The notes below the pieces were generated by a model. It did no database searches. It worked only from the letters and a program-made list of their open reading frames with translations, and had not been told where the DNA came from. This document shows positions 5,633 through 61,167 of a stretch of DNA of 64,000 bases, in pieces. Numbering within the stretch: the stretch's first letter is position 1; each line of letters begins with the position of its first letter. The translations under genes were made by a program, and so were the position numbers. Source of the stretch: Clostridia bacterium (GTDB taxonomy: Bacteria > Bacillota > Clostridia > RGIG7378); the NCBI GenBank assembly GCA_017559445.1, contig JAFYSJ010000019.1, positions 1 to 64,000 of the forward strand. The letters run 5' to 3'.

Positions 5633-7678
5633 ATGAAGAACTCATTTAACAGAAAGTTTAATGTAGTACTTGCAGTTATCTTGGCTTTTGCCATGGTGCT
5701 CGGTATGCTTCCAATTTCCACTCTTGCTTATAACAAGACAGAGGGAGACAAGCTTGTTGAGATGTTCTACGATGAAATCGTAGACGAGTACTACGATGAT
5801 CTCTATTCATTTGTTCATGATCAGGCAGTTAAGTATGGTTTGTTTGATCAGGCTATTGCAGAGATTGATTCTTTGATTGCGCAGTTTGAGGATGTTAAGG
5901 CTCAGATTCCTGCAGACGTTCCAGAGGAGATTCCCGAGGAGCTTCCTGAGGATTGGCCCGAGGAGATTCCAGAGAATTGGCTTGAGCAGATTCCACAGGA
6001 CTTGCTTGACAAGATTCCTGCAGATTTGCTTGAGGAGCTTATCAACAAGTATGGTAGCGGCACAACACAGCCAGCAAGCACATATTCTCTCAGTTCTACA
6101 AGCACAGACAACGAGTATACACAGTATGTAGCATACGTTAACCAGCTTAGATACGAGGTTGACCTTGCTATCGATACACTTAACGAGCTCAAGGATATCC
6201 TTGAGGGAGATGGCTTCGATACATATGAGGACATGATGGAGACTCTTGGCTACGTACAGGAGATGCTTCCTGAGCGTATTTCCGAGATCGAGCTTTTGTG
6301 GGTTCTCGTAGCAGCAGAGGCTGACACAGAGGAGATTGATGTAGAGAAGGTTCTTAAGGCATTTGAGATTCTTGAGAATATTGAGGATGAGCTTAAGAAT
6401 ACTGTTATTCCTGCCGCAGACAAGGCACTCAAGACAGTAGCAGCTACAGTATATGATCCTGCATGTAAGGTTCTTGAGATCTTCCTTGACAAGAATGTTG
6501 ATTCCGCTGAGCAACTTGTAGATGCTTTTGAGGAAGTTAGCAAGATGAGTAAGGAGGAGATTGAGGCTCGTCTTAAGGAGATTGCATATGATGCAACTCA
6601 CCACGAGTACGTAATCGATTCTGAGTCCTACTATGTAGCTATCGGTAATATCTATTCTCGTAACGGTTACGTTAAGATGTTGGCTACAGAGCTTGATGTG
6701 GATTACAAGGATCTTTCTAAGAACAACATGACAGCTAAGAAGATGGTTGAGGACTTCGCATCTTACAAGGCTGAGATTGCTAAGGCAGACCTTATTACAA
6801 TCAACTTCGCTGAGGTTGAAAGTCTTCTTGATATTATCGATAATGCTATTGCATACGGCGCAGACTATGACATCGATTGGACACAGTATTTTGGTGCAGA
6901 TGCAACTAAGGTAGAGAAGGAAGTTGACAATCTCGTTGCTAAGCTTTACCCCACATTTGCAGATCAGGGTGTTGATCAGAAGTATGTTGATACAGTAGTT
7001 GGTGCTATTGAGTACTATGTTTACACATGTGTTGCACATGCATTTGATCTTGATAACCTTGTAGCTGAGATTAAGGCAGTTAACCCAGATGCAGTTGTAG
7101 TTGTGGTTGGCCCATATAACCCTCTTAACAATACAACATTTGACTACAACGGCACCACAATTGAGGTTGGTACAATCTTTGATTATTTGTACGCAGTATT
7201 CGGTGCATTTGACTTCGTATATGCAGTAGTTACAGAGGATATTACATTTGTTAATGTTCCTGATGTACAGGTAGAGCTTGACTCCACAGTATTGACAAAT
7301 GATGTATTGGCAAATATTAGCTCCATTACATTGATGCCATCTGATGAGGGCCATGAGTATATTGCAGATAAGATTTACGATGCTCTTATTATCACCGTAG
7401 AGGATGAGGAGACAGAGGATCCAGTAGTTACACCTACTCCAACACCAGTTCCAACAGCAACACCAACAGTTGTTCCAACTGCAACTCCAACACCAGTTCC
7501 AACAGCTACACCTACAGCTGTTCCAACTGCAACTCCTACAGCAACACCAGAGCCTGGTGATCCAAGTGAGCCAGACGAGACAGGTGTTACAGATGTTGTT
7601 GTTATTGCAACATCAATGTTGATTGCATCCGCAGCAGTTGTTCTCTTCGTAGAGCGTAAGCGTATCTTCTTTAAGTAA
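5633..7678 (+). CDS. Secreted, membrane-anchored protein with a degenerate SGNH-hydrolase domain
   Basis: The protein has 681 residues: a signal peptide (1-30, ending near STLAYN), a Pro/Glu repeat (residues 90-135, PEEIPE-type), a helical region, an SGNH/GDSL-hydrolase-like region (about 330-590), a Thr/Pro linker (600-650) and a C-terminal transmembrane helix with the basic tail ERKRIFFK. The hydrolase part keeps the family layout (YVAI.. block I; ADLITIN block III; VVVVGPYNPL; SDEGH block V with D571 and H574). However, the block I GDS nucleophile is GNI at 338-340, and the block III G.ND is replaced by AEVE. It is therefore probably a pseudoenzyme. The start was chosen by the SD GGAGGG at 5622-5627. 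The loss of catalytic residues is visible; a binding role is inferred. Confidence 0.7.
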   Translation: MKNSFNRKFNVVLAVILAFAMVLGMLPISTLAYNKTEGDKLVEMFYDEIVDEYYDDLYSFVHDQAVKYGLFDQAIAEIDSLIAQFEDVKAQIPADVPEEIPEELPEDWPEEIPENWLEQIPQDLLDKIPADLLEELINKYGSGTTQPASTYSLSSTSTDNEYTQYVAYVNQLRYEVDLAIDTLNELKDILEGDGFDTYEDMMETLGYVQEMLPERISEIELLWVLVAAEADTEEIDVEKVLKAFEILENIEDELKNTVIPAADKALKTVAATVYDPACKVLEIFLDKNVDSAEQLVDAFEEVSKMSKEEIEARLKEIAYDATHHEYVIDSESYYVAIGNIYSRNGYVKMLATELDVDYKDLSKNNMTAKKMVEDFASYKAEIAKADLITINFAEVESLLDIIDNAIAYGADYDIDWTQYFGADATKVEKEVDNLVAKLYPTFADQGVDQKYVDTVVGAIEYYVYTCVAHAFDLDNLVAEIKAVNPDAVVVVVGPYNPLNNTTFDYNGTTIEVGTIFDYLYAVFGAFDFVYAVVTEDITFVNVPDVQVELDSTVLTNDVLANISSITLMPSDEGHEYIADKIYDALIITVEDEETEDPVVTPTPTPVPTATPTVVPTATPTPVPTATPTAVPTATPTATPEPGDPSEPDETGVTDVVVIATSMLIASAAVVLFVERKRIFFK

Positions 7679-7731: not shown

Positions 7732-7826
7732 TTATGCTATAAGGTGCTTTTCTTTGCCCTAAGTTTGCCTTTGTTATGGGAAGGGTGTATAATTTACTGT
7801 GATTTATTTTGTGCAAAGGATTGCTC

Positions 7827-9281
7827 ATGAACATTAGTGTATTAGGAGCCGGCACATGGGGATTAGCCCTTGCTAGAATGCTGGCATTAGATGGATATAA
7901 CGTAACTGTTTGGTCTGCCTTTAAGAGTGAGGTGGATGATTTGTCTATCAATCGTTGTCATAAGAATCTTCCAGGCATGGTTATTCCAGATAGTATCGTA
8001 TTTACAGAGGATATGGCTAAGGCTTGCCGCGACATGGGTGTTATTGTTTTTGCAGTACCATCTCCATTTGTTAGATCCACAGCAGCTAAGGCTATGGCAT
8101 ATATCCCAGATGGACAGATTATTGTAGATGTAGCCAAGGGTATTGAGCCTGACACATTGCTCACCATGACAGAGGTTATTAAGGACGAGCTTAACAAGGA
8201 TGGTAATCACCAGAATATTAAGCTTGTTGCTTTGTCTGGACCAACTCATGCAGAGGAGGTAGCTAGAGATATTCCTACAGCCATTGTTTCTGCTTGTTTG
8301 GATATGGATGTTGCCAAGGTTGTGCAGGAGGTTTTCTCTAACACATGTATGCGTACTTACACAAATACAGATGTGTTGGGAGTTGAACTTTGCGGTGCCC
8401 TTAAGAATATCGTAGCATTGGCATCTGGTGTTGTAGATGGTATGGGCTTTGGAGATAATACTAGAGCAGCCCTTATTACTAGAGGTATTGGAGAGATTCG
8501 TAGCCTCGGCATGTCAATGGGTGCTAATATTCAGACATTTTCTGGCTTGGCCGGTATTGGCGATATGATAGTTACTGCCACAAGTAATAATAGCCGTAAC
8601 TTTAGAGCAGGACAGCTCATTGGCAAGGGTGTTCCAGTGCCAGAGGCTGTTACCCAAATAGGAATGGTTGTAGAAGGCATTCATGCCCTTAATGCGGCAG
8701 TTAAGTTGGCTGCCAAGTATCACGTGGATATGCCGATTATTATGGCTGTAGATGCAGTAGTTAACCATGGCGCAGATCCTAGACAGGAATTGGCTAGACT
8801 TATGGTTAGACCTAAGAGATCTGAGATTGAGACAACAGAAGTTGAGACTAGATTTGAGAGTTCGCTATATACAAATAGGAGAAATAAGATGAAGAGAGTT
8901 ATTACATACGGTACATTCGATATGCTTCACTATGGCCATATTAACTTGCTCAAGAGAGCTAAGGCAATGGGCGATTACTTGATAGTTGCTTTGTCCACAG
9001 ATGAGTTTAACTGGAACGAGAAGCAGAAGAAGTGCTATTTCACATACGAGCAGCGCAAGGCTCTCTTGGAGTCCATTCGCTACGTTGACCTTGTTATTCC
9101 AGAGGAGAATTGGGATCAGAAGCGCACAGACATCCATGACTATAACATTGACACATTTGTTATTGGCGATGACTGGAAGGGCAAGTTCGACTTCCTTGAG
9201 GAAGAGGGCGCAGAGGTTGTATACCTTAGCAGAACACCAGAGATTAGCACAACACAGATTAAGAGTGATCTTAAAAAGTGA
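7827..9281 (+). CDS. gpsA-tagD: Fused glycerol-3-phosphate dehydrogenase (GpsA) and glycerol-3-phosphate cytidylyltransferase (TagD)
   Basis: A single 484-residue frame. Residues 1-330 are NAD(P)-dependent GpsA, which reduces dihydroxyacetone phosphate to sn-glycerol-3-phosphate: GAGTWG dinucleotide site, AKGIE, GALKN with the catalytic Lys, and a GDNTRA-type motif. Residues 355-484 match stand-alone TagD in length (about 130): GTFDMLHYGH with the HxGH nucleotidyltransferase motif, and RTPEISTT. TagD makes CDP-glycerol from glycerol-3-phosphate and CTP. The two halves catalyse consecutive steps toward teichoic-acid or other glycerophosphate polymers. AGGAG at 8877-8881 lies 7 bases before an in-frame ATG at 8889, so free TagD could also be made. 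The stop codon is the first TGA of a palindromic repeat. Confidence 0.92.
   Translation: MNISVLGAGTWGLALARMLALDGYNVTVWSAFKSEVDDLSINRCHKNLPGMVIPDSIVFTEDMAKACRDMGVIVFAVPSPFVRSTAAKAMAYIPDGQIIVDVAKGIEPDTLLTMTEVIKDELNKDGNHQNIKLVALSGPTHAEEVARDIPTAIVSACLDMDVAKVVQEVFSNTCMRTYTNTDVLGVELCGALKNIVALASGVVDGMGFGDNTRAALITRGIGEIRSLGMSMGANIQTFSGLAGIGDMIVTATSNNSRNFRAGQLIGKGVPVPEAVTQIGMVVEGIHALNAAVKLAAKYHVDMPIIMAVDAVVNHGADPRQELARLMVRPKRSEIETTEVETRFESSLYTNRRNKMKRVITYGTFDMLHYGHINLLKRAKAMGDYLIVALSTDEFNWNEKQKKCYFTYEQRKALLESIRYVDLVIPEENWDQKRTDIHDYNIDTFVIGDDWKGKFDFLEEEGAEVVYLSRTPEISTTQIKSDLKK
8877..8891 (+). promoter_or_regulatory. Internal Shine-Dalgarno and start codon at the GpsA/TagD junction
   Basis: AGGAG, a 7-base spacer and ATG are placed exactly at the beginning of the TagD homology, in frame with the fusion. 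It may be a relic of two genes joined by loss of the gpsA stop codon, or a working internal initiation site. Confidence 0.6.
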
Positions 9282-9385
9282 ACCACGAGCAAAGCTCGTT
9301 AGTGGCCGCTTCGCTAGTAGTCGCGCTATCGCACTAGTGAACCACGAGCAAAGCTCGTTAGTGAGCCGCCTTCGGCTAGTGAATG
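9279..9385 (+). repeat. Short-palindrome array at the 3' end of gpsA-tagD
   Basis: About five units, each a short palindrome (for example ACGAGC-AAA-GCTCGT and GCC-TTC-GGC) joined by TAGTGAACC-like linkers. The gene's own TGA is part of the first linker. The unit CCACGAGCAAAGCTCGTTAG occurs twice. It is the same family as the large array at 46777-47190 and has the same orientation relative to the upstream gene. Confidence 0.8.
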
Positions 9386-12034: not shown

Positions 12035-13100
12035 CAGGATGACTAGCCGTCAGCAATTACTCCTAATGACAACATGTTTGTTTTCGCCAATGGTTAGATT
12101 GTTGCCAAGGCTTAACACAGCAAAGGCGGGTCAGGGAGCATGGATTTCTATTTTAATTGCTGCAGTTCCAACCCTTCTGATGGTGATTTTTGCCCATTTT
12201 TTTATCCAAGGCAAGGATGGAAAGGGAACTTTAGGCGATATGTTTACCAGGGCCTATGGTAAGGTGGCTGGTAATGTAATTAATATGCTTTTGACCATAT
12301 GGATTGCTGTGTATAGCGGAGTTGTGCTAAGAACTAGCTCTGAGAGGATGATCAGCACCATATATAAGCAGGCAGAGCCCATGTTTTTCTCACTTGTGTT
12401 AATCCTGCTTATCTTAATGGTTGCTACAGGCAAATCTAAAACACTGGGCCATATGGGGCAGGTTACATGGTGCATCTTAATCCCAGTATTAGTTCTTGTT
12501 ACAGTGTTTGCTTTGACCAATGTGAAGATGAAGAATTTATTACCTGTGACAATTTCCGACAGTGTAAGCTATGTAAAGGGAGCAGTGCCTGTAATTAGTG
12601 TAATGTCACCATGGCTGTATTTCCTGTATATTCCAGTGACTGGGAATAGACAAGCATCTTTGGGGAGCAAAATTGCCCGTTTTAGCATGGCATTAGGCAT
12701 TGCCCTAGCCGTAACTATAACGACAGTGGGAGTCCTTGGAGTAGAACTTACGGAGGTGCTACACGATCCTTTTTTCAGCATGATTCGCACGCTGAATGTT
12801 TTTGGAATACTTGAGAGGATGGAGTCTTTAGTTATTGCATTGTGGGTGTTGACGGACGTGATTTATTTAGGCGGTTTGCTATTAGTGTGTGTGGAGAATA
12901 CAAGGAAGATAGTAGGGGCCAGGTCGGTGAGATGGACGGCTGTGTTGTTAGGTGGCGTGGTTGTGGCATCCTCAGTGCTGGTGGCAGATTCTGCGTCACA
13001 GCTGTCATATGCGTCTGAGGTGTTTGTGCCTACGGTTACGCTGTGGATATCTTTTGCTCTGATTCCTATTTCTGCGATAGTTTCCAAGATGCGAATATAG
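12027..13100 (+). CDS. GerAB/GerB-family germinant receptor B subunit
   Basis: The protein has 357 residues and about ten transmembrane helices of the APC transporter superfamily, with family-typical N-terminal MTSRQQLLLM. B subunits bind the small-molecule germinant. GGGGAGGG lies upstream of ATG 12027, which overlaps the end of the C-subunit gene by 8 bases, indicating translational coupling. A GTG at 12018 is in frame but overlaps the SD. The stop codon TAG is the first triplet of a TAGTGTT heptamer array. Confidence 0.92.
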   Translation: MNDRMTSRQQLLLMTTCLFSPMVRLLPRLNTAKAGQGAWISILIAAVPTLLMVIFAHFFIQGKDGKGTLGDMFTRAYGKVAGNVINMLLTIWIAVYSGVVLRTSSERMISTIYKQAEPMFFSLVLILLILMVATGKSKTLGHMGQVTWCILIPVLVLVTVFALTNVKMKNLLPVTISDSVSYVKGAVPVISVMSPWLYFLYIPVTGNRQASLGSKIARFSMALGIALAVTITTVGVLGVELTEVLHDPFFSMIRTLNVFGILERMESLVIALWVLTDVIYLGGLLLVCVENTRKIVGARSVRWTAVLLGGVVVASSVLVADSASQLSYASEVFVPTVTLWISFALIPISAIVSKMRI

Positions 13101-13217
13101 TGTTTAGTGTTTGGTGTTTGGTGTTTAGTGTTTAGTGTTGAGTGTTTAGTGGTTGTCTCTGAGTTCCATTGGTCATTTGTGTAGGAATTCATTTTAAACG
13201 TTAAACACTAAAAACTA
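13098..13217 (+). repeat. TAGTGTT heptamer array with a complementary right arm
   Basis: Eight tandem heptamers, TAGTGTT or TGGTGTT with a late GAGTGTT variant, run from 13098 to 13153. A core with CCATTGGTCATTT follows, and then a right arm at 13193-13217 (TTAAACGTTAAACACT) that can pair with the left arm. It begins inside the gerB-type stop codon. Related elements are at 25069-25175, 25321-25356, 35094-35227 and 61031-61167. Confidence 0.8.
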
Positions 13218-24148: not shown

Positions 24149-25078
24149 ATGGATTTATTGAAAATTATCGAAGGTATTAGAACTCCAGTAGGAGATGCCT
24201 TCTTCACATTTTTGGCAAATGCCATTAATGAGTATGTTCTGATAGTAATTGCACTTGTAATTTTGTGGTGCGTTAACAAGACCAAGGGTTACTATGTCAT
24301 GATGCTCACATTCTTGGGCATGCTCTGTAACCAGTTCATGAAGATTGCATTCCGTATTCCTAGACCATGGGTGTTGGATCCTGAGTTTAATCCAGTTGCA
24401 GCAGCAAAGCCAAGTGCCACAGGATATTCTTTCCCAAGTGGTCACACTCAGAGCATGTCATCCCTTTTGGGTGGCGTGACCATGGCCTTTAAGAAAAAGT
24501 GGCTTAGGGTATTCTGCATTGGATTCATTATTTTGACAGCATATTCCAGAATGTACCTTGGCGTACATACATTACTTGACGTTTCTGTAGCAATTGGAAT
24601 TTCTGCCCTTATGGTAGTTGCTCTCTGGCCAGCATTTAAGAGTGGCGAAGTTAACGAAAAGGGTATGTACTGGATTCTTGGTATTTCTGTTGCAGGCGCC
24701 ATTGCATTTGCAACATTTGTAACTGTATATCCATTCCCAGCTGATGTAGATGTAGAGAACCTTGCTGAGGCAACTAAAAACGCTTGGATGTTCTTGGGCA
24801 TGAGCTTTGCAGTGTTGCTCACATATTTTGTGGATACAAAGTACACAAAGTTCCCAATCCACGGCGTATGGTGGGCACAGCTTCTCAAGTGCGCAATTGG
24901 AACAGGTTTGGTTCTTGGCGTAAAGGGATTGCTTAAGGCTCCACTTAACTTGTTGTTTAACGGCCATCCTGCAGCAGATGCGGTGAGATACTTCTTTGTA
25001 ATCCTTATGGCTGGCGTAATTTGGCCATTGTCCTTTAAGTTCTGGGCTAAGGTAGGAAAGAAGAAAGTTAGTGTTTAG
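24149..25078 (+). CDS. PAP2-family membrane phosphatase
   Basis: The protein has 309 residues and several membrane helices, with the three PAP2 motifs: K..FRIPRP (about 65-74), PSGHTQ (about 98) and SRMYLGVHTLLD (about 133-144). The family dephosphorylates lipid phosphates such as undecaprenyl diphosphate or phosphatidate; which one is open. It extends about 130 residues beyond motif 3 with further helices. The last residues (VSV) and the stop codon are encoded by the first heptamers of a TAGTGTT repeat array, so the native stop was probably replaced. Confidence 0.88.
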   Translation: MDLLKIIEGIRTPVGDAFFTFLANAINEYVLIVIALVILWCVNKTKGYYVMMLTFLGMLCNQFMKIAFRIPRPWVLDPEFNPVAAAKPSATGYSFPSGHTQSMSSLLGGVTMAFKKKWLRVFCIGFIILTAYSRMYLGVHTLLDVSVAIGISALMVVALWPAFKSGEVNEKGMYWILGISVAGAIAFATFVTVYPFPADVDVENLAEATKNAWMFLGMSFAVLLTYFVDTKYTKFPIHGVWWAQLLKCAIGTGLVLGVKGLLKAPLNLLFNGHPAADAVRYFFVILMAGVIWPLSFKFWAKVGKKKVSV

Positions 25079-25175
25079 TGTTTGGTGTTTAGTGTTGAGT
25101 GAATGTCTCAGAGATGCTATGCATCTAGTGTTTGGTGTTTAGTGAATGAAATTTGTTCCACCAAATACTAAACAC
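25069..25175 (+). repeat. TAGTGTT heptamer element at the 3' end of the PAP2 gene
   Basis: Heptamers TAGTGTT, TGGTGTT and GAGTG at 25069-25100 supply the PAP2 stop. A palindromic core (GAGATGCTATGCATCT) follows, then another heptamer pair at 25126-25143, and then the complementary arm CCACCAAATACTAAACAC at 25158-25175. Confidence 0.75.
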
Positions 25176-25320: not shown

Positions 25321-25376
25321 TGCGTTAAACACCCAACACTAACCACTAAACACTACATTTTGACAGTGTCAAAATG
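25321..25376 (-). repeat. Heptamer repeat and 21-bp palindrome at the 3' end of mgtE
   Basis: On the minus strand, right after the mgtE stop, are TAGTGTTTAGTGG and TTAGTGTTGGGTG, the same repeat as behind PAP2 but in mgtE orientation. The stop codon lies inside the palindrome CATTTTGACA-G-TGTCAAAATG (25356-25376). Confidence 0.75.
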
Positions 25377-35070: not shown

Positions 35071-35094
35071 AAAAGGAGCGAAAGCTCCTTTTTT
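35071..35094 (+). terminator. Terminator of pepD-histidine phosphatase
   Basis: AAAAGGAGC-GAAA-GCTCCTTTT with a GNRA-like loop and six T in a row. Confidence 0.92.
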
Positions 35095-35227
35095 AGTGTT
35101 TGGTGTTTATCCATTACTTTGGAACGACCCAAAGTAATCAAAAGTCGCCCGCTACTTCCGAAGCGCGGGAGGCACGGTTCGCAAACTTCGTTTGCAGTGT
35201 TTAGTGACTGTCACTTTGTTCCAATGG
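35094..35227. repeat. Mixed repeat region: heptamers and long hairpins
   Basis: It starts with TAGTGTTTGGTGTTTA, followed by a perfect 10-bp hairpin ATTACTTTGG / CCAAAGTAAT, a GC-rich hairpin near 35146-35172, GCAAAC-TTC-GTTTGC, and another TAGTGTTTAGTG-like piece at 35196-35207. It ends with the CCAATGGTCATTT core at 35220-35232. No coding sequence is seen. Confidence 0.65.
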
Positions 35228-35307
35228 TCATTTCACTAGAACGCAACGCGTTCGTTTCGCTAGCAACGCAGTTGCGGCCACTAGCACCAACGGTGCGGTT
35301 ACTGGTT
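35228..35307 (-). repeat. Short-palindrome array at the 3' end of the GH18-like gene
   Basis: Read on the minus strand, right after the stop codon: CAGTAACC, then GCACC-GTT-GGTGC-TAGTGG, GCAAC-TGC-GTTGC-TAGCG and AACGCGTT with TAGTG. The first two stems are identical to units of the array at 46777-47190. The orientation follows the upstream gene. Confidence 0.75.
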
Positions 35308-36943
35308 AAAAAAAGCTTTCAATAAACTCTCTAAAGATTTCAGCGGATTCACCACGGGAGATAGTAGGATTGTTGGATGTTACCCACTCGTCATCAGCAA
35401 CGTATGTATCGTTGGACATGTATGTTGCAAGTGCTGTGAGCAACTTGGCCATATCTTCACGAGTTACATTTGATTCTGGATTTGTAGCCATGTTGCTATC
35501 TGCAGAGATAAGACCCTTCTCAATGGCCCAATCAATAATTGGTGCATAGTATGCATCCTTATCTACTTGAGGTGCAGGTGTAACTACTACAACATCCTCT
35601 GTAACATCAGTAGTAACATCATCTGTAACATCTGTTGTTGACTCAGGTGTGGTTGTAGGGATATCTACAGGCAAATACTTGATGTTAAGATCCAAGTTGT
35701 AAGCCTCAGTAGTAAGTCTGCAAACTGCAGCTAATGCCTCTCTATTAGTCAATGCTCTTTCTACATAAAAGAAACCATCGCCGTCCATATCGAACAAACC
35801 TCTTGCAGTACAATACTGGATAGCATCGCAGTACTTAGAATTCATAATATCTCCAAAGCTAACATTTACGTAGTAAGCAGAGAAGAAACCTTCGTTATAC
35901 ATTACGTGATAATAGAGGTTATCGTCGGATCTGTTAAAGTTAGAAAGTGTAACAGGGAAGATGTCATCGCCAATTGTACATACAACGATAATTCTATCTC
36001 TGTCGTATTCTCCCAAATCATACATTGGGAATGCAGCCATATCGCCCTTTACGATGATGTTAATACCATTTTCAAATACGTATATCATGATGGATGTCAT
36101 TTGACTTACAGCAGAGTTGGAGGAATATCCAACTACACCAAGTCCACCAAGTCCGTTTGCGTAGGCAACAGAACTAATATCTGCAGCAAGTTCGGCATTA
36201 ACTTCTGTAGCTGACAAGATAAAGTTCATTGAAGCAGCAGACAAGCCGTATTCCAAATATGTATTAATGGAGGCAGACATGAGATCACCAGTAGCCTGCT
36301 GGTCATAGCCAAAGCCCATAATATTGAAGTAATCAATATTATCCTTAAGAGCACCTACAGAAGTAAGATCTAAGCTGTTACCCTCGTGGGAAAGTGTAAG
36401 GGATACAGTGTATTCTTTATCTGAAGCAGACTTTTTGGATTCGAAAATGTTGTTAAGAGCCTTACAAAGGCTAGCAAAGTTAACAGATGTGGGGCCTGCA
36501 ACATAAAGATCGATGCCGTCCAATTCAGCATTATCTACTAATTTAAAAATTTCTTGAGAAAACTTGTTAATTCTAGATACGTAGGCAGAGGATTCAACAT
36601 ATGATTCCCATCCAACTACGCCAAGTACGCAAATGTTAACCTTAAGATTAGGGTGATCTTTCTTAAAATCCTTGGCCTTTGCCATGGCTTGCTGAACATT
36701 TAATCCAGGAATGGCAGAGGAAATGGATCCATCGGAAGAGACCTTGAGAATCATAAGGTTAACATCAGTAATACCCTTGAAAGTGGCAGAACTATCCTCA
36801 AAGTTATCAATGTATGCAATATAACGATTGCCACTGTCTGCCATAGTATTCTTGTTAAAAAGATTTGCGCCAAGAATACATAGACCAATAACTAGGATGG
36901 CCGATGCGATAAATATTAATGCTTTGCGGTAAGTTCTGTTCAT
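35306..36943 (-). CDS. Membrane-anchored GH18-like pseudoenzyme with SLH-like repeats
   Basis: The protein has 545 residues: an N-terminal transmembrane anchor (8-28), a GH18-type barrel (about 38-330), a Thr/Val/Asp linker (about 445-470) and two stretches resembling S-layer homology repeats (about 385-435 and 478-540, with AIQYCTARGLFD and IDWAIEKGLIS). In active GH18 enzymes the motif is DxxDxDxE. Here it reads DGIDLYVA (142-149), with Tyr and Ala in place of the third Asp and the catalytic Glu, so no chitinase or muramidase activity is expected. It probably binds wall glycans. It follows glgA by 9 bases, probably in one transcript. Confidence 0.65.
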   Translation of the reverse strand: MNRTYRKALIFIASAILVIGLCILGANLFNKNTMADSGNRYIAYIDNFEDSSATFKGITDVNLMILKVSSDGSISSAIPGLNVQQAMAKAKDFKKDHPNLKVNICVLGVVGWESYVESSAYVSRINKFSQEIFKLVDNAELDGIDLYVAGPTSVNFASLCKALNNIFESKKSASDKEYTVSLTLSHEGNSLDLTSVGALKDNIDYFNIMGFGYDQQATGDLMSASINTYLEYGLSAASMNFILSATEVNAELAADISSVAYANGLGGLGVVGYSSNSAVSQMTSIMIYVFENGINIIVKGDMAAFPMYDLGEYDRDRIIVVCTIGDDIFPVTLSNFNRSDDNLYYHVMYNEGFFSAYYVNVSFGDIMNSKYCDAIQYCTARGLFDMDGDGFFYVERALTNREALAAVCRLTTEAYNLDLNIKYLPVDIPTTTPESTTDVTDDVTTDVTEDVVVVTPAPQVDKDAYYAPIIDWAIEKGLISADSNMATNPESNVTREDMAKLLTALATYMSNDTYVADDEWVTSNNPTISRGESAEIFREFIESFF

Positions 36944-39908: not shown

Positions 39909-41567
39909 ATGAATGAGAATACATCTCTAAGTGTAGTATCAGTTACCGTTAGAGGTTCAGAGAATATCGGTCTTAAGGATATTTGTTATATCGATGGCAA
40001 GTGTCCTGAGCAGTTCGGCAATACAAACTCTGTTATTTATGCAGATAAGTATGGCCCAGGTTTTATCTTTGCATTTTTTGAAATGAGTGTTGCTGGTAGC
40101 TACGCTCCTGAGCTTCGCAGTCTTATTGGTATGAGAATGCGCATGCTTCACCGTAGCACAGACTTCGCACATAGCACAGGTGAGGGTATTCTTAACGATA
40201 TTAACGCCACTATTAACCGTGAGATAGATAAGTACTGCGAGTATGAGAAGTTGCAGCCAGGTTCTATCTCCATTTTCTCCAAGTGCATTATGGTAATTAC
40301 TGGTGCTAAGGTATTTATAGATCGCACAGGAGATGCGGGTACATATTATTTCTGCACATCAGAGCGTCGTATCTTGGCTAAGAATCGTGAGAGCTTTGAT
40401 CTTCATAGAGGAGATTGCTTCATGATTTGCTCTTCTGCTGTTAAGAAGTCCATGACTCCTGCTGATTTGCAGAAGTGCTTGGATTCTAACAAGTCTGCAG
40501 AGAACAACGTAAGTATCGTTCTTGGCGAGGCTTCTGCTAGAGACAAGATTCACGATCTTACAGCTATTACAATTAAGATTCTCAATGCTAACGTACCTAA
40601 CAACTCCAACACTGGTTTCTATCAGGCAGTTGGTGCACACTCTGCTTCTCAGAAGGGTGCTGTATCTAGAGTTATCGAAGACACTATGCCTCAGGAGCTT
40701 GTAGTTGAGCCAACAATGACAGTAGAGCCTGTTGTTGAGGATTTGGTTGATGAAGTAGTTGAGCCAGAGGTAGCAGAGGAGGCAGTTGCTGTTGAGGTTC
40801 CTGCTACTGAAGAGGTTCAGGAAGAGGTTGCAGATGAGACTATTTCTCTTGATCAGATTAATGAGAATGTAGCTAAGCCTAATTCATTTGGAGATCGCAA
40901 CACATTCGTATTTGACTTTAAGGAAGTTGATAAGGAGACAGCACCTGTTCCTACAGTTTCATTGGAGGATTCAACACCTAAGATGACAGCTGTTGTTCCA
41001 GAGGTAGAGGAGCCTGATTCATACTACGACGATAGCATGCAGACTCAGCTTACTGATTTGGAGGATGTTAACGAGGATGTTGTATCTGAGGATGCCTTGT
41101 TTGAAGATGAGGATGAGGCTAAGGAGCAGCGTTCCGAGAAGATTATCACTATTATCCTTGGTGTTTTGGCAGGTATTGCAGTTCTTGCTTGCGTTTTGAT
41201 TATCGGATCTAGAATGGGATTCATTGGTGGAGATAAGGCAACACCTGCTCCAACTCCTACAACTCCTGTATACACAGATGTTCCTACAGCAGAGCCAACA
41301 TCAACACCTACACCTACACCAGAGCCAACTGCTACTCCAGAGCCTACTCCAGAGCCAACAGCTACTCCTACACCAACTCCAACACCTACTCCATCTCCAG
41401 AGGAGCTTGGATATCGTTGGTACACAGTTAAGGAAGGCGATACATTCTGGGGCATTGCATACAGAGAGCTTGGTAATGGCGACAGATGGCCAGAGGTTGC
41501 AGAGCTTAACGGCATGCAGAACCAGGCATTGACACCTGGTACACAGCTTAAGGTACCATTGAATTAA
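39909..41567 (+). CDS. Transmembrane protein with a PP2C-like pseudophosphatase domain and an extracellular LysM domain
   Basis: The protein has 552 residues. Residues 1-225 follow the order of PP2C/PPM phosphatase blocks: FIFAFFEMSVAG where DGMGG is expected, RTGDAGTYYF for GDSRAY, GDCFMICSS for GD.LLLCSDG, and DLTAITIKI for DN.TVI. The metal-binding Asp residues are missing in all of them. Then come an acidic Val/Glu stretch, a transmembrane helix (about 412-432), a Thr/Pro linker (440-495) and one LysM domain (WYTVKEGDTFWGIA to LKVP) that should bind peptidoglycan. The PP2C relation is inferred from motif order; the LysM and membrane parts are clear. Confidence 0.7.
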   Translation: MNENTSLSVVSVTVRGSENIGLKDICYIDGKCPEQFGNTNSVIYADKYGPGFIFAFFEMSVAGSYAPELRSLIGMRMRMLHRSTDFAHSTGEGILNDINATINREIDKYCEYEKLQPGSISIFSKCIMVITGAKVFIDRTGDAGTYYFCTSERRILAKNRESFDLHRGDCFMICSSAVKKSMTPADLQKCLDSNKSAENNVSIVLGEASARDKIHDLTAITIKILNANVPNNSNTGFYQAVGAHSASQKGAVSRVIEDTMPQELVVEPTMTVEPVVEDLVDEVVEPEVAEEAVAVEVPATEEVQEEVADETISLDQINENVAKPNSFGDRNTFVFDFKEVDKETAPVPTVSLEDSTPKMTAVVPEVEEPDSYYDDSMQTQLTDLEDVNEDVVSEDALFEDEDEAKEQRSEKIITIILGVLAGIAVLACVLIIGSRMGFIGGDKATPAPTPTTPVYTDVPTAEPTSTPTPTPEPTATPEPTPEPTATPTPTPTPTPSPEELGYRWYTVKEGDTFWGIAYRELGNGDRWPEVAELNGMQNQALTPGTQLKVPLN

Positions 41568-45627: not shown

Positions 45628-46788
45628 ATGATCGCAAATCACATTAAAACTAAGATGCAGGCAGGTTCCTGGATCAGAGATATGTTCGAAAAAGGCACAG
45701 AACTTAAGAAAATATATGGAGATGGTAAGGTTTTTGACCTGACACTTGGTAATCCTGATGTGCCTTCTCCTAAGGAAGTAAATGAGTCAATTGCAAAGCG
45801 TGCTTCCATGGGCGATAACATCCACGGATATATGTCAAATGCAGGATATCCAGAGATTAGAGCACTTATTGCAGACAGAGAGTCCAAGAGAAATGGCGTA
45901 AATCTTACAGCAAATAACGTAACAATGTGCGTTGGAGCAGCAGGCGGCCTTAATTGTGTGTTCAAGGCATTACTTAATCCAGGAGAAGAGGTTCTTGTAC
46001 AGGCTCCATATTTTGTACAGTATGGTGGATATGTAGATAACCATGGCGGAAAGCTTATTGTAGTACCTGCTAAGGTGCCAGATTTTGATTTGGATCCTAA
46101 TCTTATTGGCACATATATTACTGAAAAGACAAAGGCAATTATTATTAATTCTCCAAACAACCCAACAGGTGTTGTGTATAGTAGAGAAACTTTGGAAAAG
46201 CTTGAAAAGGTTTTAACAGAGAAAGAAAAGGAGTTTGGCACAGACATTTATGTTGTGTCCGACGAGCCTTACAGAGAAATCGTATACGATGGAGTAGAGG
46301 TTCCTCCTGTAATGGATATTTTCCATAACGCTATTATCGTATATTCATACAGCAAGAGCTTGTCTTTGGCAGGAGAGCGTATTGGATATGTGGCTATTAG
46401 TCCTAATTGTGCAGATGTAGAGGCTCTTTGTGCAGCAGTTCCATTTGCCACAAGAGAGCTTGGTTACACAAATGCACCAGCTCTTTTCCAGTATGTGCTT
46501 AAGGATTGTGTGGATTGTCAGACAGATGTGGATGCATACAAGGTTCGAAGGGATATTCTTATGAAAGGACTTAGAGAGCTTGGATATGAGTTCCCAGAAC
46601 CACAGGGTGCATTTTACATTTTCATGAAGACTCCAACAGAGGATGAGAATGAGTTCATCAACAACTACTGCTTGCCAAGAAATGTTTTGGCAGTACCAGG
46701 CAGAGGCTTTGGTTGTCCCGGTTACATGCGTGTTGCATACTGTGTGGCTGAGGAAACGATTAAAGGAGCAATTAAGGCGCTGCGCTAG
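45628..46788 (+). CDS. Class I/II PLP-dependent aminotransferase
   Basis: The protein has 386 residues, an aspartate-aminotransferase-type fold: TLGNPDVPSP near the N-terminus, NSPNNPTGVVYS, VSDEPYREIVY, and SYSKSLSLAGERIGY with the PLP-binding Lys. The substrate could be aspartate, alanine or an aromatic amino acid. The last codons (ALR) and the stop TAG are encoded by the first unit (GCGCTGCGCTAG) of a 20-unit palindrome array. The native end of the gene may therefore have been modified. Confidence 0.92.
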   Translation: MIANHIKTKMQAGSWIRDMFEKGTELKKIYGDGKVFDLTLGNPDVPSPKEVNESIAKRASMGDNIHGYMSNAGYPEIRALIADRESKRNGVNLTANNVTMCVGAAGGLNCVFKALLNPGEEVLVQAPYFVQYGGYVDNHGGKLIVVPAKVPDFDLDPNLIGTYITEKTKAIIINSPNNPTGVVYSRETLEKLEKVLTEKEKEFGTDIYVVSDEPYREIVYDGVEVPPVMDIFHNAIIVYSYSKSLSLAGERIGYVAISPNCADVEALCAAVPFATRELGYTNAPALFQYVLKDCVDCQTDVDAYKVRRDILMKGLRELGYEFPEPQGAFYIFMKTPTEDENEFINNYCLPRNVLAVPGRGFGCPGYMRVAYCVAEETIKGAIKALR

Positions 46789-47190
46789 TTACCGCTCATT
46801 GCATTCACTAGTAGTCCGCACCGTTGGTGCTAGTAGGCCACGAGCATAGCTCGTTAGTGAACCGCACCGTTGGTGCTAGTGAGCCGCTGCGCTAGTTACC
46901 GCTCATTGCATTCGCTAGTAGTCCGCACCGTTGGTGCTAGTAGGCCGCAACTGCGTTGCTAGTGAACCGGACCTTTGGTCCTAGTGAACCGCTGCGCTAG
47001 TATACGCAACTGCGTTGCTAGTGAACCACGAGCAAGGCTCGTTAGTAATCGCAACTGCGTTGCTAGTGAACCACGAGCAAGGCTCGTTAGTGAACCGCCT
47101 TCGGCTAGTGAACCGCTGCGCTAGTATACGCAACTGTGTTGCTAGTGAGCCACGAGCATAGCTCGTTAGTGAACCGCTGTGCTAGTATAA
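46777..47190 (+). repeat. Array of 20 short palindromes with TAGTGAACC-type linkers
   Basis: Twenty units of 11-24 bases. Each has a small palindrome ending in TAG, followed by a linker (TGAACC most often, also TGAGCC, TAGTCC, TAGGCC, TATAC). Stem types: GCACC-GTT-GGTGC (3), CGAGC-NNN-GCTCG (4), GCAAC-TGN-GTTGC (4), GC-TGC-GC (5), GGACC-TTT-GGTCC, GCC-TTC-GGC, and two less symmetric units. There is no T-tract and no coding potential. It starts within the aminotransferase 3' end. Relatives are at 9279-9385 and 35228-35307. Confidence 0.9.
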
Positions 47191-47227: not shown

Positions 47228-47260
47228 GGTGTCAAGAAAAAAGCTTGACACCTTTTATTT
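47228..47260 (+). terminator. Terminator upstream of ylxM-ffh
   Basis: GGTGTCAAG / CTTGACACC with loop AAAAAAG, followed by TTTTATTTTT. The right arm contains the -35 box of the next promoter. Confidence 0.88.
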
Positions 47261-47272
47261 TTGTGCTAATAT
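47245..47272 (+). promoter_or_regulatory. Promoter of the ylxM-ffh-rpsP-trmD operon
   Basis: TTGACA, a 16-base spacer and TAATAT. TTGACA is part of the terminator's right arm, so one element serves both purposes. Confidence 0.7.
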
Positions 47273-47297: not shown

Positions 47298-47654
47298 ATG
47301 ACAGATTTCACTAGAATTCCATTTTTGTTGGACTTTTACGGAGGACTTCTCAGTGAGAGAAGCTATTCTGCCATGGATATGCACTTCAATGAAGATAGAT
47401 CATTAGCTGAGATTGGAGAGCAGTTAGGCATTTCCAGACAGGCAGTTAGTGATTTGATTTCTAGGACTAAGGATAAGTTAGAGTCTTATGAGTCAGCACT
47501 TGGTTTGGCAGAGAGATTTTTGAGCCAGAGAGACCAGCTGACAGAGATTCGTTCTCAGGTAACAGGTATTGACCTTGATACTTTGGCACAGGAGGACAAG
47601 GAGACTCTTGCTAAGATTGACGACGCATTAACGCGAATGATTGGAGATTTGTAA
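47298..47654 (+). CDS. ylxM: YlxM (UPF0122) signal-recognition-particle-associated HTH protein
   Basis: The protein has 118 residues: a helix-turn-helix pattern (SLAEIGEQLGISRQAVSDLISR, like sigma-70 region 4) and a C-terminal helix. YlxM is always next to ffh in Firmicutes and modulates SRP. The SD TTGGAGG precedes ATG 47298. A longer in-frame extension to 47136 runs through the repeat array and terminator and is rejected. The stop overlaps the ffh start (TAATG). Confidence 0.93.
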   Translation: MTDFTRIPFLLDFYGGLLSERSYSAMDMHFNEDRSLAEIGEQLGISRQAVSDLISRTKDKLESYESALGLAERFLSQRDQLTEIRSQVTGIDLDTLAQEDKETLAKIDDALTRMIGDL

Positions 47655-48988
47655 TGGCAGTATTTTCAGGTTTTTCTGACAAGATTCAAGCTATAGTAGG
47701 CAAGCTTCGTGGTCAGGGTCGCGTTACAGAGGCTGATGTTAAGCAGGTTGCTACCGAGCTTAAGAGAGCACTCATTTATGCAGACGTTAACTTGGCAGTT
47801 GCTAAGGACTTTGTTGCTAAGGTTTCTGAGAAGGCTTTGGGAGAGGATGTTCTTAAATCTTTGACACCTGGTCAGCAGGTTATCAAGATTGTTTACGAGG
47901 AACTTACAGAGCTTCTTGGTTCCAAGCAGACTAGACCTCATCTTTCACCTAACCCACCAACAGTATTCCTTATGGCAGGTTTGCAGGGTGCAGGTAAGAC
48001 AACAGCCACAGCTAAGCTTGCTAATTACATGCGCAAGCAGGGCCACAACCCATTGATGGTTGCATGTGACGTTTATCGTCCAGCAGCTATTCAGCAGTTG
48101 CAGGTTCTCGGTAAGCAGTTGGATGCTAAGGTCTTCACAATCGAAGGTGAGAAGAATCCAGTTAAGATTGCTACTGAAGCTATTAAGTATGCCACATCCT
48201 ATTTGCACGACATTGTAATCATCGATACTGCAGGACGTTTGCAGATTGATGAGGACATGATGCAGGAGATGGAGGACATTAAGGCAGCTGTTAAGCCAGA
48301 CCAGATTTTCTTGGTTATTGACTCCATGATTGGTCAGGCAGCTGTTAAGGTTGCTAAGACTTTTGATGAGAGAGTATCCATCGATGGTGTTATCCTTTCT
48401 AAGTTGGACGGTGACACAAGAGGCGGTGCAGCCCTTTCTGTTAAGGCAGTTACAGGTAAGCCAATTTACTTCGCATCAGTTGGTGAGAAGTTAAGTGATT
48501 TGGAGCCTTTCTATCCAGATCGTATGGCAGATCGTATCTTGGGAATGGGCGATGTTAAGTCCCTTATCGACAAGGCTCAGGAGGCTTTCGATGAGGAACA
48601 GTCCAAGGAACTTGCACAGCGTATGCTTTCTAACAAGTTCACATTGGATGATTTCTTACAACAGATGCAGCAGCTCAAGAAGATGGGTTCCATGGAGGAG
48701 TTGGTTTCCATGATTCCTGGCATGAATGCTAAGGCTTTGCAGGGAGCAACACTTGATGAGTCCAAGATGGTTCACATGGAGGCTATTATCCAGTCCATGA
48801 CAGCCAAGGAGCGCAGGAATCCTGACCTGCTAAATGCTTCCAGACGTAAGCGTATTGCTGCTGGTTCTGGAACAACTGTTCAGGAAGTTAACAGGCTCGT
48901 CAACGACTTCGAGAATATGAAGAAGATGATGAAGCAGATGACTAACATGACCAAGGGCAAGGGCAAAAAGTTCCGAGGCATGTTTTAA
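47654..48988 (+). CDS. ffh: Signal recognition particle protein Ffh (SRP54)
   Basis: The protein has 444 residues: the N domain, the GTPase G domain with GLQGAGKTT (P-loop, about 106), DTAGR and [11 protein letters not shown], and a Met-rich M domain ([24 protein letters not shown]) that binds 4.5S RNA and signal sequences. It targets nascent membrane proteins to the membrane with FtsY. Confidence 0.98.
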
Positions 48989-61024: not shown

Positions 61025-61030
61025 TATATT

Positions 61031-61167
61031 TAGTGTTTAGTGTTTGGTGTTTGGTGTTTAGTGATTAGTGTTTGGTGATTTGTGGTTAACCTAGGCCTCT
61101 ATGGTCCAATTGTCATATTTATTGGTACATTATTCCTTTATTAAACACAAATACACTCAACACTAAC
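61031..61167 (+). repeat. TAGTGTT heptamer element upstream of thiI
   Basis: About eight heptamers (TAGTGTT, TGGTGTT, TAGTGAT) run from 61031 to 61087. A core with GGTCCAATTGTCATATT follows, then the complementary arm TTAAACAC...CAACACTAAC at 61140-61166. It begins 6 bases after the desulfurase stop and ends just before the thiI SD. As RNA it could form one long stem. Confidence 0.78.

Follow-up and report, generated by a model that had tools for sequence, protein, structure and literature searches.

The aminotransferase gene studied here ends inside a run of small palindromes, which raises the question of what kind of element this run is and how it came to supply the stop codon of a gene. 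The DNA analysed is a stretch of 64,000 nucleotides from a Clostridia bacterium (contig JAFYSJ010000019.1), hereafter the window, and the features of interest, in window coordinates, are the following.

45628..46788, plus strand: aminotransferase gene, whose last codons CTG-CGC-TAG fall together with hairpin 1 (GCTGCGC) and TAGT 1 of the array
46786..46788, plus strand: TAG stop codon of the aminotransferase gene, from the first TAGT of the array
46779..47186, plus strand: the array, 20 hairpins with a TAGT after each
46786, 46809, 46831, 46855, 46877, 46893, 46916, 46938, 46960, 46982, plus strand: TAGT 1 to 10 of the array
46998, 47019, 47043, 47064, 47088, 47106, 47122, 47143, 47167, 47183, plus strand: TAGT 11 to 20 of the array
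47228..47272, plus strand: terminator-like hairpin GGTGTCAAG/CTTGACACC with a T-run (47228-47263) and an overlapping promoter
47298-47654, plus strand: YlxM-like gene, downstream of the array
47654-48988, plus strand: gene for the signal recognition particle protein Ffh, downstream
9276..9380, plus strand: short array of the same family, in which AAGTGA gives the TGA stop of gene 7809-9281
35235..35304, minus strand: another short member of the family, following gene 35306-36943 of the same strand

YlxM-like (47298-47654) and Ffh (47654-48988) are what we take the two downstream genes to be, partly from what characterises these established families; for Ffh, relatives were matched as well.

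An earlier note on this DNA had described the region 46777-47190 as a noncoding array of twenty units without a T-tract. Our analysis bears this out: we found 20 TAGT motifs with a small hairpin before each, no long open reading frame and no T-tract. The TAG said to be carried by every unit is present as TAGT in 20 of 20 and extends to TAGTGA in 10 of them, and the first TAGT, at 46786, is indeed the end of gene 45628-46788. The palindromes are real as well, but their stems are not uniformly 5 bp as had been thought; they range from 2 to 6 bp, and one unit type, GCTCATTGCATTCRC (GCTCATTGCATTCGC), is an imperfect hairpin with an internal TC/TC mismatch. This mismatch is kept in GCTCGTTTCACTCGC and GCTCACTTCGTTCGC, two relatives of GCTCATTGCATTCGC whose inner pairs appear to co-change when pairing is read from the sequence. 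The hairpins are joined by linkers of 4-5 bases (GAACC, GAGCC, AGGCC and a few others). As RNA, the array folds better than its shuffles (z -2.6), and the DNA fold of the opposite strand is weak (z -1.5). No Rfam model matched the window. We rejected a CRISPR array, since recurring hairpins and not unique spacers lie between the TAGT motifs, and a heptad stop-codon repeat, since the units measure 15-24 bp and do not follow a 7-bp period.

A role as transcription terminators, or as replacements of terminators, would suit the intergenic position of such arrays, often right behind a stop codon. However, the array does not belong to the intrinsic terminator class, because none of its hairpins is followed by a T-tract; each is followed by TAGT and never by a T-run. 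A terminator-like hairpin with a T-run (47228-47263) follows the array, which thus sits between the aminotransferase stop and a terminator/promoter element. That hairpin is overlapped at 47228..47272 by the promoter of the ylxM-ffh genes (TTGACA-16-TAATAT), and the stretch 47228-47272 is near-identical in a sister species (G001), which therefore has the terminator-like hairpin too. Elsewhere in the genome, the arrays at L150 and L155 fill co-directional gaps and leave at most 24 nt to the next start, and several arrays come after an existing terminator. We regard termination as a highly improbable function of the arrays.

The source genome comprises 1.68 Mb in 40 contigs and is 96% complete. 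With at most 1 mismatch, the core 12-mer CTAGTGAACCGC matched it 329 times, as compared with 2 matches for the reversed control. We examined 727 kb, or 43% of the genome, made up of the window and 40 stretches around repeat sites. Genes in it were predicted with a simple codon-usage script and not with a published gene finder; since this sample was picked for the repeat, absolute densities within it are biased upward. In the 727 kb, TAGT came after 254 palindromes with a perfect stem of 5 bp or more and a 3-nt loop, and the next commonest 4-mer occurred 90 times, largely from the same arrays. The association of palindrome and TAGT is thus far beyond chance. Arrays with at least 3 core matches number 66 and are located between genes; there are 4 solitary units, and control tags, in which another tetramer stands behind the same stems, are almost absent.

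Among the TAGT-bounded segments, 588 of 666 fit 12 hairpin patterns, and about 11 interchangeable stem types occur across arrays, forming compensatory families in which complementarity is kept while the stem types differ. Units are 15-24 bp long and run head to tail on a single strand within each array, with up to about 20 hairpins. TAGT and its spacing are near invariant, holding at 538 of the 609 inner junctions scored, where most exceptions are scoring artefacts. The two edges of the arrays differ: at the left edge, the first TAGT has its T in 50 of 66 arrays, compared with 457 of 462 TAGT motifs inside arrays (p=8e-12), and at the right edge the last TAGT is intact in 63 of 65. AGTGA thus looks like the start of the element and TAGT like its end, and we describe the repeat as a lineage-specific, non-coding, REP-like family with the layout AGTGA-(linker-hairpin-TAGT)n.

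The stem types had also been noticed behind two other genes, always in gene orientation. This is true within the window (9276-9380 on the plus strand, 35235-35304 on the minus strand) but fails as a genome-wide rule, as 26 arrays between co-directional genes are sense and 18 antisense (p=0.29); for the arrays as a whole there is no orientation preference. A preference for 3' ends is present when positions are tabulated against gene ends. This link is real but one-sided, residing in the 5' edge. The median distance from an array's 5' edge to a same-strand stop is 12 nt, that from its 3' edge to an opposite-strand stop is 120 nt (p=5e-6), and in convergent gaps the 5' edge is nearer to the stop than the 3' edge in 10 of 11 cases. 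Among the 39 same-strand arrays, the distance from the stop to the start of the array is 15 nt or less in 22. The stop lies at the first TAG, 3 bases later (nAG-TGA) or 3 bases before in 14 of the 32 same-strand 5' junctions listed, hence in 14 of the 39 sense arrays, and stops inside an array are in frame with the first TAGTGA in 11 of 13 cases (p=2e-4). In-frame fusion of the 5' edge to stops is far above expectation.

This in-frame docking could reflect a functional requirement. The arrays might be mRNA 3'-end elements, their hairpins acting as a barrier to 3'-to-5' exonucleases or slowing down ribosomes at the stop, like E. coli REPs. Downregulated translation and stalled ribosomes have been reported in E. 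coli for REPs no more than 15 nt from a stop (PMC12306157), so that a mild translational effect is conceivable for the 22 arrays that start this close; the RNA fold of the window array and the complementarity kept across stem types also agree with such a role. On the other hand, 18 arrays have an opposite-strand gene on both sides and 5 lie between divergent genes, 23 in all, and at least 4 arrays (L129 3922, L144, L147 10567 and L157) begin directly after the T-run of an intrinsic terminator, past the expected mRNA end. The sister species is without arrays. Single stem mismatches are not rich in G-U (3 G-U versus 6 A-C, both small numbers), most of the apparent A-G mismatches being a scoring artefact of GAGCC-GCTGCGC. 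G-U tolerance thus gives no RNA-specific signature, and selection at the RNA level is not supported. The 3'-end stabilising and read-through safeguard roles suggested in the earlier note found no positive support here, and we consider an mRNA-end or translational role, possible but unsupported as it is, unlikely. The combination of perfect stems and variable loops is in keeping with a process acting on DNA that either corrects palindromes or needs them.

The order of units within arrays provided further information. Neighbours share a stem in 27 pairs, as compared with 84 expected when each array is shuffled (z -8.1), and in 4 pairs versus 38 expected when the 7-nt type is excluded. This avoidance is independent of loop identity, and recurrence of the same stem at distance four is enriched (z +5). 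When two-unit models were folded as RNA, identical neighbours merged into one longer hairpin spanning both, whereas the second of two different hairpins retained its own fold. The avoidance can be read in three ways: long palindromes may be lost from DNA, deletions may occur between identical neighbours, or selection may favour hairpins that fold independently. The last would suit the idea that the arrays are platforms for a DNA- or RNA-binding protein with a nucleoid, replication or regulatory role, TAGT plus hairpin being the bound motif; each hairpin could then fold alone, and the near-invariant TAGT and limited linker set are in keeping with a binding site. Stem sequences vary freely, however, spacing ranges over 15-24 nt, and restriction to one species speaks against an old essential factor, which leaves a binding platform a distinctly unlikely explanation.

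Multi-unit blocks are repeated within arrays 25 times, in excess of the 3.8 in shuffles, and growth by blocks is therefore likely. Simple unit slippage would not predict the strong avoidance of identical neighbours, a point against the repeat-family reading favoured below. Copying between loci is weakly seen, as few exact multi-unit blocks are common to different loci (6 shared trigrams versus 1.1 by shuffle, with a maximum of 5).

We then consider where the family occurs. Among 391 Clostridia genomes, the unit matched 200 times in the source genome and 0 or 1 time in each of the 390 others, including the sole congener searched. Phage and plasmid collections contained nothing similar to the unit, and viral contigs gave no match to two units; 25 contigs carried one 16-mer each, which in a collection this large we attribute to chance. 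A phage or plasmid origin was rejected on these grounds.

In the sister species, the aminotransferase protein is 87-91% identical and aligned flanking DNA about 83% identical. The neighbour genes are the same and the flanks align across the array site, but the array is absent, leaving an empty site, and none of the 13 array loci that could be bridged in this species contains an array. The aminotransferase ends in ALRECK-stop in the sister and in ALR-stop in the source genome, and a heptad repeat (GAGGTRA) starts at the sister's aminotransferase stop and supplies its stop codon. The replacement by an unrelated repeat in the sister makes this gene end a natural case for comparing the origin, spread and harmlessness of such repeats. 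Heptads of the form RRRGTRA match 84 times in the sister and are near absent in 58 other relatives and in the source genome. Their runs lie on the upstream gene's strand in 15 of 21 cases, and 12 of these 15 are within about 20 nt of its stop, many overlapping it. At L188 8568, in the gap orthologous to array L122 9857-10266, the sister has a lone unit-like TAGTGAACCGATGCGC, which from its sequence may be an ancestral seed or may be chance.

The source species has heptads of its own, TAGTGTT, at the same kind of place and with a true 7-bp period. In the window they are found as follows.

13098-13151, 25068-25101, 61029-61088 and 35094-35110, plus strand: TAGTGTT/TGGTGTT heptad arrays behind genes
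about 25326-25358, minus strand: TAGTGTT/TGGTGTT heptad array behind a gene

The repeats at gene ends thus differ between the two sister species, hairpin-TAGT and TAGTGTT in one and RRRGTRA heptads in the other, at the same kind of site and once at the identical stop codon. This opens the possibility, rather unlikely in our view, that a sequence-independent process in the genus docks and expands tandem repeats at stop codons. If so, it would repeatedly rewrite gene ends and supply stop codons during evolution.

Several minor observations concern these heptads. The array at 13098-13151 gives the TAG stop at 13098. Most heptad arrays of the window have inverted heptads behind them, no more than about 120 bp away, and so take on a MITE-like outline, the conserved core of which is close to GTTCCAATGGTCATTT. 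RRRGTRA arrays of the sister that overlap stops in gene orientation include loci L184, L246 and L278-L289; at L282, L283 and L288 the last part of the repeat, directly ahead of the next start codon, is a purine-rich run, which may act as the ribosome-binding site of the next gene. At L122 7442, in minus-strand orientation, an array starts with TAGTGAG-AAGTGAG-CC, two heptads running into the first linker, a hint that arrays may have originated inside heptad repeats.

Small repeats of several known kinds resemble the arrays in part. Pneumococcal BOX is a modular element of longer parts, and it is set apart by description in that we know of neither a hairpin alphabet nor stop docking for it. The arrays share with BOX and RUP the character of small interspersed repeats in a Gram-positive genome (PMC3049150). 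The GC-rich palindromic clusters of yeast mitochondrial DNA are small and mobile, with an AG target site (PMC4478555); this target is a possible analogue of the AGT that bounds our arrays where the left-edge T is missing, although the likeness is one of description, in another type of genome. The TAACTGA heptad direct repeats of Beggiatoaceae carry stop codons and overlap the stops at ORF ends (PMC4679880, MacGregor 2015). The RRRGTRA heptads of the sister behave alike, whereas the arrays are hairpin cassettes with units of 15-24 bp, and the TAACTGA repeats are 7-bp, lack hairpins and are oriented mainly toward start codons.

The closest likeness is to REPs and BIMEs, which are also short, palindromic, intergenic and of high copy number. 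REPs of the GTAG superfamily lie mostly downstream of genes, and their ends often give the TAG stop of a flanking ORF (PMC3733652, Di Nocera et al. 2013). Supply of a stop codon by a palindromic repeat therefore has a precedent, and repeats that hand genes their stop codons are already known in REPs. The arrays differ from them in holding up to about 20 units each, 15-24 bp long and with many types of stem measuring 2-6 bp; in lacking the GTAG or CGTC tag and carrying an invariant TAGT directly after the hairpin; and in being strictly head to tail, whereas BIME units alternate in orientation. A Y1 tyrosine transposase is also absent from the genome, an enzyme not strictly required of every REP-bearing genome. 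In view of these differences in the defining tag, orientation and enzyme, we do not file the arrays as REPs. A head-to-tail hairpin-alphabet array with in-frame stop docking and neighbours that avoid sharing stems appears to be undescribed in the literature searched.

Dispersed in one genome, restricted to one species, docked at stop codons and built in blocks, the arrays probably represent a lineage-specific, REP-like repeat family that came and grew at the DNA level, most copies being without function for the adjacent gene, though we hold this with limited confidence. Of the three roles proposed in the earlier note, the best fit is that of a mobile or expanding repeat: the copies are dispersed and species-specific, the family is absent at the sister's orthologous site, and 5' edges dock at stops. 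Arrays would arrive and grow by hairpin-assisted slippage, recombination or transposition, and an insertion reaching a gene end would survive when the AGTGA or TAGTGA at its front immediately takes the place of the stop. Arrays would be tolerated at gene ends because their leading edge carries stop codons. Those in 3' UTRs would be transcribed and may have a mild influence on mRNA decay or on the release of ribosomes.

As to a driver, a search for the REP-type Y1 transposase (PF01797) in the 96%-complete genome gave no match while its controls were positive, and no reverse transcriptase was found in the genome. Both were rejected as drivers, which weighs against our reading of a mobile repeat; if a mobilising enzyme exists, it is not the REP transposase. 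The controls of a search for an IS91-type Y2 transposase were silent.

Two other kinds of repeat were observed. A third dispersed element, roughly ATCCATTACTTTGGAACGACCCAAAGTAATC...CGCTACTTCCGAAGCGCGGGAGGCACGG, lies at 35110-35235 of the window, with similar sequences in L137, L139, L149, L153 and L154; its core words have 8-10 copies in the 727 kb of the source genome and 1-2 variant copies in the sister, including one in L188, in the gap orthologous to that of array L122 7458. In-frame tandem repeats with periods of 12/24/48 bp and 30 bp occur within coding sequence at 5919-6034, 7436-7543 and 41283-41393, some of them threonine-proline rich by their codons (ACTCCAACA...).
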